47,707 nt of DNA, from assembly GCA_949292105.1 (NCBI GenBank), contig CASEYK010000010.1:1-47707 (forward strand), given 5' to 3'. Shown here one piece after another: positions 2,112 to 7,077 of this stretch; the stretch's first letter is position 1; every line of letters begins with the position of its first letter. This DNA is from an uncultured bacterium. Lineage in GTDB: Bacteria; Bacillota_I; Bacilli_A; RFN20; CAG-826. Made by a program: the position numbers and the translations under genes. Below the pieces are notes generated by a model, which saw only the letters and a program-made list of their open reading frames with translations, had not been told where the DNA came from and made no database searches.

Positions 2112-3782
2112 ATGAAAGTTATTGATGGTCAAACATTGAAAGGAATGCTGATATCAGCATCAAATAATTTATATAACCATTATCCAGAAGTTGATGCGTT
2201 AAATGTTTTCCCTGTCCCTGATGGCGACACTGGTATGAATATGAATTTAACGATGACAAGCGGCGCGAAAGAAATTCAAAACCGCGGTGAAAATAGTTGT
2301 AGTGAAATCGCTAAATCATTCTCTCGCGGACTTTTGATGGGGGCACGCGGTAATTCCGGTGTCATTACCTCTCAAATTTTTAGAGGTTTTTATCAAGGTC
2401 TTGATGGCAAGGCTGAAATTAGTGCGAAAGATTTCGCTGCTGCGATGCAAAAAGGTGTCGAAGTCGCTTACAAAGCTGTTATAAAACCAGTTGAAGGCAC
2501 AATTTTAACAGTCGTCAGAGAAGCGAGCCAATATCTCTTTGATCATGTTCAAGATGGTATGAGTTTATCCAAAGCTATTCGATTGTTTCTCGATGAAGCT
2601 TATGATTCTTTAAATCGAACTCCTGAACTGCTTCCAATATTGAAAGAAGTTGGCGTTGTCGATTCTGGTGGTGCTGGACTTATCAAAATCTTTGAAGGGA
2701 TGGAATCGGCTTTAACTGGTAATCCCGTTGAAAGAAATCAAGCCACCGCCACAGAAGATAATCCTCTTATTGCCGCTGGCTCTAAGATGGAAAATGAAGA
2801 ATTTGGCTACTGCACTGAATTTATCATGTCTCTTGGTCCTGATACAGTTAAAAAACCATTTGATGAAAAGCGCTTCACAAATCATCTATTAGCGCGCGGC
2901 AATTCGCTTGTTGTGGTCCGCGATGAAGATATCGTAAAAGTACATGTTCATACATTAAATCCCGGCAATGTTTTGAATTATGGCCAACAATTTGGCGAAT
3001 TTCTCAAAATTAAGATTGAGAATATGACTGAGCAGCATCACGCCTTAGAAACCGGTGCTCTTAAACAAGAAGATGTTACACCTGATTTAGTCGAGGAAGA
3101 AGATAATGCTCCTCTTAATCCGTTTGCTCTTATCGCTGTTTCTTCTGGCCCCGGCATTGAAAAACATTTCAAAGAACTTGGTGTTGATGAAATTGTTAAA
3201 GGGGGGCAAACGATGAATCCTTCAGCTGAAGACTTTGTTGAAGCGATTAAAAAAGTGCACGCTCAAACTGTTTATATTTTCCCAAACAATTCAAATATTT
3301 TAATGGCAGCCGCGCAAGCCGCTGATGTCATTGAAGATAAAAGTATCAACGTATATGTCATACCGACTAAGACCATTCCTCAAGGCATGACCGCCGTGAT
3401 GACTTTTAACCCTGAAGAAAGTGCCGAAGATAACTTTAAAGCGATGAAAAGCGCCCTTAAAAATGTCAAATCAGGCGAAGTGACATTTGCTATTCGCGAC
3501 ACTGAAATGAATGGCGTATCGGTCAAAAAAGACGATTACATCGCAATCAGCGGTAAGCAAATCATTTCAGCGCACAGCAATAAGTTTGATGCATTAATGT
3601 CGCTACTTGAAACGATGGTAAGCGATGAAAACTATCTCATTAGCATTTTAGTTGGTGCTGATGTCGATGAAAAAGAAAAAGAACAACTCAAGGCAAAAAT
3701 TAATGAATTATACGGCGATTTAGACTGCGAAATTATTGATGGCGGGCAACCAGTATACTCATTCATTGTTGGAATTGAATAA
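2112..3782 (+). CDS. fakA: Fatty acid kinase catalytic subunit FakA (DAK2 domain, YloV)
   Basis: FakA phosphorylates fatty acids presented by a DegV-type FakB protein, giving acyl-phosphate for the PlsY/PlsX step of phospholipid synthesis. The N-terminal DAK2 (DhaL-like) nucleotide domain carries PVPDGDTGMNM (34-44), whose aspartates bind metal, and GARGNSG (77-83). The middle region and the C-terminal domain (from about residue 338, with QTMNPSAEDFVEAI and IFPNNSNI) match the full-length family. At 556 residues it is complete. It is translated from an ATG 2 nt after the asp23-family gene, with AGGAA just upstream. No FakB gene is in the window. With plsX and an acyl-ACP thioesterase nearby, it fits recycling of free or exogenous fatty acids. 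Confidence 0.93.
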   Translation: MKVIDGQTLKGMLISASNNLYNHYPEVDALNVFPVPDGDTGMNMNLTMTSGAKEIQNRGENSCSEIAKSFSRGLLMGARGNSGVITSQIFRGFYQGLDGKAEISAKDFAAAMQKGVEVAYKAVIKPVEGTILTVVREASQYLFDHVQDGMSLSKAIRLFLDEAYDSLNRTPELLPILKEVGVVDSGGAGLIKIFEGMESALTGNPVERNQATATEDNPLIAAGSKMENEEFGYCTEFIMSLGPDTVKKPFDEKRFTNHLLARGNSLVVVRDEDIVKVHVHTLNPGNVLNYGQQFGEFLKIKIENMTEQHHALETGALKQEDVTPDLVEEEDNAPLNPFALIAVSSGPGIEKHFKELGVDEIVKGGQTMNPSAEDFVEAIKKVHAQTVYIFPNNSNILMAAAQAADVIEDKSINVYVIPTKTIPQGMTAVMTFNPEESAEDNFKAMKSALKNVKSGEVTFAIRDTEMNGVSVKKDDYIAISGKQIISAHSNKFDALMSLLETMVSDENYLISILVGADVDEKEKEQLKAKINELYGDLDCEIIDGGQPVYSFIVGIE

Positions 3783-3900: not shown

Positions 3901-5055
3901 ATGAAAAAAAGATATGTCATCGGCTTGATATGCGATATTTTAATTATTTGCTTATCGATTGTCGGAGTTACTTTTGCCCTTGTCAATCAAGTTATTGAAG
4001 CCGAAAATTTAATTTATTTCTTAACGACCATTGGTGCTATTTTTGCGGGAGCGGTATCGCTCTTATCAATTGTCTTACATTTATGTACTTTAAAACATAA
4101 AAACGATCGAGTTGCTAAGAGTGTAGAAACAATCGAATATATTTTAAAACTCATTGCGACGACTACCATGATGTTTGCGTTTGTCATCGTTGTTGGATAT
4201 ATGCAGTGGTTTGAACAATCATTTATCCTGATTGACGACTTATGGATTAATGTTCTTCTTCATTATGTTTTGCCGCTCGTCATGCTCGTCGGTTTTGTTT
4301 TTGGAACTGGAGATAGAAAACATCGTTTTGCTCTTACGCTTTTAGGACCAATTCTTACCATCGCTTTTTATATTTATATTCCGATTTTAGTCGTCTTAGA
4401 CAATGTAAGTGTAAATGCGTTTCATGAATATATTGCTCAGTACTATTGGAAAGGTGAGACATATGTCATGGCGATTCTTGTTGTCGCCTTTGCAATTGTA
4501 GCTTATTTGATGTCTATCGCGCTTTACTTTTTGAACGCCTTAAGTTTAAAAGGCCATAAGCAAGATATTGCATTAAATATAGAAAAGAATATGGATCAAG
4601 TGGCTGAGGTGCCATCAACTGAGATGATTAAGGTTGAAGACAAAGAATCTGTCGAAGAGAAGCCAAATCAGCCTGAAGAGAATGATGACATAAATAATGA
4701 TAATGCTGTAAAAAATGAAAGTGACACACAAGAAAATTCAAAACAAAGCGAGGTGAAAAAAATGAATAAAACAACAGCCAAAAAAACACAAGAAAAGAAA
4801 GCGGCTAAACCAGCAACCACCAAAGAAAAAGCTGCTCCAAAAGCCAAAGACAAAGAATCTGTCGATTATCGTATCTATCACATTTCTTATCGTGAGAAAG
4901 ATCGCGCTTGGGCTGTAAAATATCAAAAAGGTCAAAGAGCTATTAAATTATTTGCTACCCAAGCTGAAGCTATTGAATATGCTAAAGCGTTAGCTAAAAA
5001 TCAAGATGGTTCTATTCGCGTCCATTCCACCAAAGGCCGCATTCGCAAAGCTTAA
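3901..5055 (+). CDS. Six-helix membrane protein (Pr6Pr-like) fused to a C-terminal DUF2188 domain
   Basis: A 384-residue protein in three parts. Residues about 1-215 form six hydrophobic helices; NVLLHYVLPLVMLVGFVFG is reminiscent of Pr6Pr/FAR-17a-type membrane proteins. Residues about 220-320 are a charged linker, acidic first and then lysine/alanine/proline-rich (AAKPATTKEKAAPKAK), recalling histone-H1-like tails. The last about 65 residues (YRIYHISYREKDRAWAVKYQ onward, ending GSIRVHSTKGRIRKA) match the small DUF2188 family. ATG 3901 is preferred over GTG 3892 because the GTG overlaps the ribosome binding site AGGGGG (3887-3892). An in-frame ATG at 4762 has its own GAGGTG. Function is unknown. 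The DUF2188 call is fairly firm, Pr6Pr tentative. Confidence 0.7.
   Translation: MKKRYVIGLICDILIICLSIVGVTFALVNQVIEAENLIYFLTTIGAIFAGAVSLLSIVLHLCTLKHKNDRVAKSVETIEYILKLIATTTMMFAFVIVVGYMQWFEQSFILIDDLWINVLLHYVLPLVMLVGFVFGTGDRKHRFALTLLGPILTIAFYIYIPILVVLDNVSVNAFHEYIAQYYWKGETYVMAILVVAFAIVAYLMSIALYFLNALSLKGHKQDIALNIEKNMDQVAEVPSTEMIKVEDKESVEEKPNQPEENDDINNDNAVKNESDTQENSKQSEVKKMNKTTAKKTQEKKAAKPATTKEKAAPKAKDKESVDYRIYHISYREKDRAWAVKYQKGQRAIKLFATQAEAIEYAKALAKNQDGSIRVHSTKGRIRKA
4762..5055 (+). CDS. Possible internally initiated DUF2188 protein
   Basis: Within the membrane-protein gene and in the same frame, GAGGTG (4750-4755) stands 6 nt before ATG 4762. Initiation here would yield a soluble, basic 97-residue protein: an about 35-residue Lys/Ala/Pro-rich tail plus the DUF2188 domain, without the membrane part. 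Stand-alone DUF2188 proteins of this size are common. Whether this start is used cannot be decided from sequence; the reading frame also encodes the long form. Confidence 0.35.
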   Translation: MNKTTAKKTQEKKAAKPATTKEKAAPKAKDKESVDYRIYHISYREKDRAWAVKYQKGQRAIKLFATQAEAIEYAKALAKNQDGSIRVHSTKGRIRKA

Positions 5056-5073: not shown

Positions 5074-7077
5074 ATGAAATTATCTAGTTCCTCAAGGATC
5101 AACTTTTTGTTATATCAAATGGGCATTCATAATTACTATGATGTTATTTATCATTTGCCTAGAAGATATGAGGACTATACACCAAGTGATGAAAATCATC
5201 TTGTAGATGGCAAAAAAATCTCGATTGAAGGAACAATAATATCAAGTCCAAAACTCGTAAAAACAGCTCGAACAAGCATTACCACTTTTGACTTTTATTC
5301 GAGCAAAAAGAAATATTATCGCGTTGTTGCTTTCAACCGTGAATATTTGTCTAAAATTGTAAAAATCAATGATACTTATACGGTTTATGGGGTCTATGAT
5401 AAAAAGCGAAATGAAATCGATATGATTAACCTTCAAAAAGGAATTATTGTTCCTGAAGAATACATAAAACCAATCTATTCATTGCCTCAAGAACTAAAAA
5501 ATCATGAATTTGTTCGATTGGTCAAAAAAGCTTTCAAAGAAGTTGAATCAAAATTTATCTCTTTTGTGCCGTTTTATTTTGCTAATAAATATGGTTTAGT
5601 TGACAAAAAAACCGCACTTTTTAACGCTCATTTCCCCTCAAACCGCGATAATTTAAAAAAATCTTTATTGTTTTTGAAATATGAAGAAGCGTTGAAGTTT
5701 GCTTTGAATAACCGCCTTATTAAAGAAGAAAATTATTCCATTGAAAAATATAAATCAGATTACATCGAACAAGAGATGCTTGCGCCGATGATATCTCAAC
5801 TTCCATTTCAATTAACTCACGATCAATTAACCTCTATTGATGAAATTCTTAAAGATTTAAATGATGAACATTTAATGTATAGGTTACTGCAAGGTGATGT
5901 GGGAAGTGGCAAAACTGTTGTTAGTTTTGTAGCGATGTACGCCAATTATTTGCGGGGCCGACAGTCGGCTTTAATGTGTCCAACCGAAGTTTTAGCCCGC
6001 CAGCATTATGAGAATGCTAAGCGACTTTTTGCATTTTCTAAAGTTAACATTCGTCTATTGGTTGGCTCTATTCCAAACGATGAAAAGAAATCGATTCTCA
6101 ATGATCTACAAGATGGTGTAATTGATATTATCATCGGAACGCATTCACTTTTTTCAAAAAATGTTATTTACAATTCACTTGGACTTGTTGTTATCGATGA
6201 ACAACATCGTTTTGGTGTTAATCAGCGATTAGCGCTTCTTGGCAAAGATGATCATGCTGATTTATTGATGATGTCGGCCACCCCTATTCCAAGAAGTCTT
6301 GCTTTAAGCCTTTATGGTGATTTGGATATTTCGACAATAGTTTCGGCGCCTCAACAAACGCGAGACATAAAGACGATTGTTTGTGAAAAAGAGAGTGAAC
6401 AATTTTTTTCTTACATCGACGAAGCTTTAAAATCAGGACATAAAGTTTATGTTGTTCTTCCGCTGATTGAATTTGGTGAAAAATGTGAGGATTCAATTGA
6501 AACTGTATATCCAATATTCGAAGAACGTTATCCAAAGGAAGTGCAAATGCTTCACGGCAAAATGAAAAGTGAGGAAAAAGAAAAAGCCATTGCTCAATTT
6601 GCTAGCGGAGAAAAGCCATTGCTTGTCAGCACGCAAGTGATTGAGGTTGGTATCGATGTACGCGATGCAACATTAATGATAATTTATGGTGCTAATAATT
6701 TTGGTCTTGCCAGTTTGCACCAGTTGCGTGGGCGCATTGGAAGAGACGGACAGCCCAGTTTATGTGTTTGTTTAATTGATTCCATGATTGATGATGAAGG
6801 CAAAGAGCGTTTAAAAGTTTTCTGTAATACCAATGATGGTTTTGAATTGGCTGAATTAGATTTAAAAAGCCGTGGTCCAGGCGAACTTGTTGGACTAAAG
6901 CAATCTGGTTTGCCTGATTTTCATTTTCTCAATGTCGTTAATGATGTAAAAATTTTTAAAATTGCTAGAGAAGACGCGAAATACATTTTTGACAATCAAA
7001 TGTCGAATCAAAACTTTTTAAATTTGATTGAATTGTTGAAAAAAAGTGGAAATATCAAGAAGATAAGTAAAGGGTAA
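5074..7077 (+). CDS. recG: ATP-dependent DNA helicase RecG
   Basis: RecG remodels stalled replication forks and branch-migrates Holliday junctions. The 667-residue protein has the N-terminal wedge/OB region (about 1-250) followed by two helicase lobes. Motifs seen are Walker A GDVGSGKT (274-281), DEQHRFG (375-381), MSATPIPRS near 400, and QLRGRIGRDGQ late in lobe 2. Its length is about normal for the family. It starts 18 nt after the membrane-protein gene with no clear Shine-Dalgarno sequence. In Bacillus recG also precedes fapR-plsX; fapR is missing here. Confidence 0.96.
   Translation: MKLSSSSRINFLLYQMGIHNYYDVIYHLPRRYEDYTPSDENHLVDGKKISIEGTIISSPKLVKTARTSITTFDFYSSKKKYYRVVAFNREYLSKIVKINDTYTVYGVYDKKRNEIDMINLQKGIIVPEEYIKPIYSLPQELKNHEFVRLVKKAFKEVESKFISFVPFYFANKYGLVDKKTALFNAHFPSNRDNLKKSLLFLKYEEALKFALNNRLIKEENYSIEKYKSDYIEQEMLAPMISQLPFQLTHDQLTSIDEILKDLNDEHLMYRLLQGDVGSGKTVVSFVAMYANYLRGRQSALMCPTEVLARQHYENAKRLFAFSKVNIRLLVGSIPNDEKKSILNDLQDGVIDIIIGTHSLFSKNVIYNSLGLVVIDEQHRFGVNQRLALLGKDDHADLLMMSATPIPRSLALSLYGDLDISTIVSAPQQTRDIKTIVCEKESEQFFSYIDEALKSGHKVYVVLPLIEFGEKCEDSIETVYPIFEERYPKEVQMLHGKMKSEEKEKAIAQFASGEKPLLVSTQVIEVGIDVRDATLMIIYGANNFGLASLHQLRGRIGRDGQPSLCVCLIDSMIDDEGKERLKVFCNTNDGFELAELDLKSRGPGELVGLKQSGLPDFHFLNVVNDVKIFKIAREDAKYIFDNQMSNQNFLNLIELLKKSGNIKKISKG

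Follow-up and report, generated by a model that had tools for sequence, protein, structure and literature searches.

A membrane-anchored DUF2188 protein with a possible internal start in its linker, and a free DUF2188 gene in the sister species

The window (the whole stretch of 47,707 nt that was analysed) contains a gene for a protein with a Pr6Pr-type membrane domain, a linker and a C-terminal DUF2188 domain (Table 1). It lies between two genes that we take to be fakA (2112-3782, upstream) and recG (5074-7077, downstream), from general knowledge of both families. Membrane-DUF2188 fusions are ordinary for this clade, and the possible dual start of this one is the part worth testing. The best overall explanation, which we consider fairly probable, is that DUF2188 is anchored at the membrane here, that an internal start came with a stretch of the linker, and that gene fission took place in the sister species.

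Table 1. Features of the fusion gene and their positions in the window
Feature	Position	Strand	Basis or remark
Whole gene: Pr6Pr-type membrane domain, linker and DUF2188, 384 aa	3901..5055	+	ORF, Pfam match, orthologous same-slot fusions
Membrane domain of six helices, residues 1-230, N- and C-terminal ends predicted on the cytoplasmic side	3901..4590	+	AlphaFold2, positive-inside loops, Pr6Pr profile-profile match
Acidic linker half, residues 233-287, net -9	4597..4761	+	Composition
Left copy of perfect 19-bp direct repeat AAGACAAAGAATCTGTCGA	4637..4655	+	0 expected in shuffles
Internal Shine-Dalgarno-like GAGGTGA	4750..4756	+	5 nt before in-frame ATG 4762; RNA unstructured, -0.9 kcal/mol
Lys/Ala/Pro-rich basic linker half, residues 288-325, predicted disordered	4762..4875	+	Composition, low pLDDT
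Putative free basic DUF2188 product, 97 aa, predicted pI 10.2	4762..5055	+	Internal ATG
Right copy of 19-bp direct repeat	4847..4865	+	210 bp from left copy, in frame
DUF2188 domain, residues 326-383, beta-beta-beta-alpha-beta	4876..5049	+	Pfam PF09954 E 2.5e-15; AlphaFold2 core pLDDT ~90

The membrane half

The frame runs through 384 codons without interruption. The Shine-Dalgarno match at its start is only 4 nt long; an alternative start, an upstream GTG (3892), would lengthen the protein by three residues and is without a Shine-Dalgarno match. Scans for promoters and terminators gave counts not above those in shuffles. A six-helix membrane domain joined to DUF2188 through a long linker had been described from the sequence, and helix prediction, AlphaFold2 and Pfam confirmed it. 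Six hydrophobic segments begin near residues 10, 44, 81, 116, 147, and 189, and the AlphaFold2 model of the domain (mean pLDDT 84.6, pTM 0.84) has six long helices and some short ones. The N-terminal start, the loop past helix 2, and the loop past helix 4 each carry three to four Lys/Arg residues, and the opposite loops are acidic. Because of this positive-inside pattern, the N- and C-terminal ends of the domain should both be in the cytoplasm. The tail predicted to be cytoplasmic from these charges also agrees with the earlier proposal of a basic DUF2188 domain tethered at the membrane.

Searched alone against Pfam and NCBIfam models, the membrane domain gave nothing useful, and the protein did not match the NCBIfam Pr6Pr model NF038065 (curated cut-off 30 bits). 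The Pr6Pr model matches 10 of the 23 aligned members of the membrane-domain group, and the fused relative G007 scores above the curated cut-off. When the group was compared with non-fused Pr6Pr proteins by profile-profile alignment (hhalign), they matched over the full length at 99.6% (E 2.7e-24), and a profile built from only this protein and its same-slot fusions matched Pr6Pr at 99.1%. By sequence, the membrane half belongs to the Pr6Pr type as a divergent member, a kinship that is visible in this protein only via relatives and profiles. A literature search on Pr6Pr and a search for Pr6Pr relatives on plasmids found none. Solved structures searched with full-length and DUF2188 sequence profiles gave chance matches only, and GPCRs were rejected as structural kin of the membrane domain, with a TM-score below 0.4 in Foldseek against PDB.

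Compared with the same-slot fusions (fakA-recG), identity is 25-28% in the membrane half and 67-70% in DUF2188, and because of this difference we infer that the membrane half is mainly an anchor. We consider it quite unlikely that the membrane half is instead an enzyme resembling the eukaryotic AIG1/ADTRP proteins (lipid hydrolase or acyltransferase) and that DUF2188 merely regulates it. The chemistry of AIG1 has been described in the literature. An enzyme would be in keeping with Thr (42/43), His (121), and Tyr (156), which are kept at Pr6Pr motif positions, and with the control genome of Caulobacter vibrioides, in which the Pr6Pr model and the Far-17a_AIG1 model each have a match, not necessarily in one gene. 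The adjoining fakA and plsX would suit lipid work as well, but closeness of fakA, recG, and plsX is a common arrangement in Firmicutes. Moreover, the motif His is absent from several fused relatives, making a conserved enzyme unlikely, and divergence is far faster in the membrane half than in DUF2188. The Far-17a_AIG1 model (PF04750) matches none of the 245 genomes of the phylum, this one included, and we therefore rejected an AIG1-type identity.

DUF2188 and its fusions in related genomes

The C-terminal 58 residues of the protein score 56.8 bits with PF09954 (gathering cut-off 22) and have the positions that are invariant in an alignment of 58 domains (Y-H, W, F-x-T-Q-x-E-A, H...G). The net charge of the domain is about +10, or about +15 including the basic tail. 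Complex I (NDUFS4-type) and TTHA1013 were rejected as structural kin, since their Foldseek matches in PDB were weak (E 0.1-0.3); NDUS4 Pfam matches in four DUF2188 members point in the same direction and are too weak for use. Among solved structures, neither the membrane domain nor DUF2188 has a significant likeness. A literature search on DUF2188 found no experiment among the mentions looked at, which were protein or gene tables only.

A scan of the family found DUF2188 in 107 of 142 genomes. The preliminary description held that DUF2188 proteins are normally short, which fits about 86 of the 150 frames listed (under 160 aa) but not the approximately 57 that have 280-560 aa. Across all loci that were compared, at least four predicted helices precede DUF2188 in 44 distinct frames, this one included (some frames are nearly identical). 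The hosts of the 43 further fusions are related uncultured Bacilli/Clostridia, and thus the fusion is not the oddity for which it had been taken. Relatives of the protein are present in 39 of 58 related genomes, and orthologous fusions occupy the same fakA-recG slot in another genus. The membrane part of most fusions is Pr6Pr-type. Several others have a membrane domain without detected similarity to it, and therefore the anchoring of DUF2188, judged from sequence, may have arisen more than once.

One genome (G019) has a triplet of DUF2188 genes, in which a six-helix fusion stands between two free ones (L040:8294-10396), and L156:2856-5183 is a tandem pair of Pr6Pr-DUF2188 fusions. Directly 3' of another such fusion, L082:4989-6494 encodes four helices, an acidic and then Lys/Ala/Pro linker, and three DUF1508 domains, which is the same plan with another small domain. 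A TMEM164-family membrane domain is joined to an ABC transporter ATPase domain in a 799-aa protein (L047:4159-6555). The same-slot fusion of G111 (L052:1486-2331) misses about 41 residues of the DUF2188 core in frame, either by real loss or by assembly error, and its genome has a free DUF2188 elsewhere. The DUF2188 protein in a record titled Corallococcus (L142) falls inside Clostridia in the tree, and the contig may be mis-binned or the gene transferred.

The genomic contexts of the fusions are varied, with neighbours such as a choloylglycine hydrolase, a protein of the SpoIIE type, or a 5'-nucleotidase. The order yidC-khpB-[fusion]-mnmE (khpB is also called jag) recurs in six related species (L103:2016-6726, L110, L121, L094, L154, L038). 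KhpB is an RNA-binding protein encoded within the conserved rnpA-yidC-khpB operon, and contact with YidC has been reported (PMC12542702). The strong basic charge of the domain and the recurrence of this slot speak for contact of DUF2188 with RNA or ribosomes at the membrane, although we hold this to be less likely than not. DUF2188 is a widespread bacterial domain, and rapidly diverging anchors repeatedly hold it at the inner membrane. This offers an initial, testable hypothesis on its place of action, to which the placement right behind yidC and khpB in six species adds.

Linker, repeat, and internal start

The second half of the linker is Lys/Ala/Pro-rich, as had been described, with 11 K, 7 A, and 2 P among its 38 residues and a net charge of +7. 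Its likeness to histone H1 had also been noted; this stands for composition and for nothing beyond it. Across the fusions, the part of the linker next to the membrane is regularly rich in acidic residues, and the part next to DUF2188 is often rich in Lys, Ala, and Pro. The resemblance to H1 is thus common to fusion linkers in general and not peculiar to this protein.

The stretch of 210 bp bounded by the 19-bp repeat contains the internal start as well as the basic tail and the greater part of the acidic linker. The same-slot fusions of the neighbouring genus are without a comparable stretch, and taking out the 210 bp in thought gives their layout. Tandem duplication was rejected as the origin of the repeat, since only 19 bp recur and the flanking stretches are unrelated.

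Within related loci, a 7-nt Shine-Dalgarno match at a spacing of 4-9 precedes 39 of 721 ORF starts and only 5 of 3705 internal ATGs. ATG 4762 is the one internal ATG of 272 in the window that has such a match, and about 0.4 such sites are expected over the whole window. A single site is thus unsurprising by itself; what is surprising is that it falls exactly at the boundary between modules. The match is longer than that of the gene's own start (7 nt against 4 nt), and by this measure the internal start is on a par with real ones. The preliminary description had proposed GAGGTG before this ATG as a second start and its conservation as the check. The site is indeed present, with a better Shine-Dalgarno match than the gene's own, but it is not conserved: an ATG with a match of at least 6 nt is absent from the linkers of all 43 other fusions, and the sole other genome of the genus in the comparison has no fusion. 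Among the other fusions, G025 comes nearest with a match of 5 nt (L017, residue 375), together with L068, where 6 nt match before a GTG.

It is a serious possibility, a little short of probable, that one gene gives two products, the anchored protein of 384 aa and a free one of 97 aa. We are evenly divided over the alternative that only the anchored protein is made and that GAGGTGA and the ATG arose by chance from A-/G-rich Ser-Glu-Val-Lys-Lys-Met codons. Chance is favoured by the absence of the site from every other fusion, by the number of such sites expected among the internal ATGs of the window, and by the weak Shine-Dalgarno matches of most genes in the window anyway. It accounts less well for a match that exceeds that of the gene's own start and for a site at the very boundary where the free gene of the sister species begins.

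The sister species and comparison with known systems

The comparison within the genus is between this genome and one other, G001. Next to recG, G001 has a free DUF2188 gene of 105 aa with its own AAAGGAG, and 43 residues precede the domain in its product, compared with 38 in the putative 97-aa product. The fakA contig of G001 continues with a secreted-type protein and ends in the start of an ABC transporter gene, while the recG contig opens with the remainder of a similar ABC transporter; we infer that the two contigs adjoin. Across this contig gap, a secreted-type protein of 276 aa and the ABC transporter lie between fakA and the free DUF2188 gene (L031, L177).

In the DUF2188 tree, which has 63 columns, many open forks, a bootstrap that has not settled, and a long G001 branch, the two genes are sisters (84/90) within a clade (97/86) that also contains four same-slot fusions. 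Because they group inside a clade of fusions, loss of the anchor in G001 is favoured, and a fusion was probably the source of the free DUF2188 of G001. When the two proteins are compared directly, the alignment is confined to the domain and a few preceding residues. The Lys-rich tails align no better than their composition allows (z 1.1), so a common origin of the two starts is unsupported.

The free state could instead be ancestral in the genus: loss of a stop codon would have joined a free DUF2188 gene to a membrane gene that was once separate, with the internal start as the old start. The free G001 gene in the same slot, the Shine-Dalgarno sequence and ATG at the joint, and the 19-bp repeat, which points to recombination there, all speak for this. 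We nevertheless consider it unlikely, since in the tree both genes are nested among same-slot fusions of another genus, and a fused ancestor therefore takes fewer steps.

In the best overall explanation, the six-helix Pr6Pr-type domain lies in the membrane and, as charge and model suggest, has its two ends on the cytoplasmic side. The flexible acidic-then-basic linker would present DUF2188, which is conserved and strongly basic, on the inner face of the membrane; the membrane half would be mainly an anchor and DUF2188 the working part. The 210-bp stretch may have brought or created the strong internal start, and the free 97-aa domain would then possibly be made too. In the sister species, the membrane half would have gone from the slot and the domain persisted as a free gene. 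The species pair would thus most likely represent stages of fission: fusion, possible dual start, and free gene. We propose only tentatively that both stages can be seen, i.e., that the fusion gained its internal start with a repeat-bounded insertion and gives both forms here, and that the sister then shed the anchor and retained the free gene alone in the slot. This gene and that of G001 offer a compact and specific example of how a fusion may come apart via an internal start.

Among known families, Pr6Pr (NF038065) shares with the protein its six-helix layout and a motif (Y-F-T ... IT ... H...P ... Y), but the protein is without the motif Ser-Asn and has an added DUF2188 tail. As regards Far-17a/AIG1 hydrolases, Thr and His occupy Pr6Pr motif positions in the protein. 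Uncharacterised membrane proteins of nucleopolyhedroviruses (baculoviruses, BFVD) have a predicted fold similar to that of the membrane domain (TM-score up to ~0.7, probability 1.00), but with E-values of only 3e-3 to 5e-2 and an identity of ~11-14%. The basic disordered linker half, a Lys/Ala/Pro-rich stretch of 38 residues, resembles histone H1-like tails in composition only. The DUF2188 region matches the phage family phrog_3220 (E 5.6e-9); DUF2188 (PF09954) is free in its usual short form, whereas in this protein it is attached to a membrane domain through a linker some 100 residues long. Dual-start genes likewise have a strong Shine-Dalgarno sequence and a start codon in frame at a domain boundary, to which GAGGTGA and ATG 4762 would correspond, but here the internal start is not conserved in the fused relatives (0/43). 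Close systems are also the membrane-DUF2188 fusions of related uncultured Bacilli (fakA-recG or khpB-mnmE). Their linkers are different and none has the internal Shine-Dalgarno sequence and ATG, but the order of parts is the same: a membrane domain, a charged linker, and a C-terminal DUF2188.
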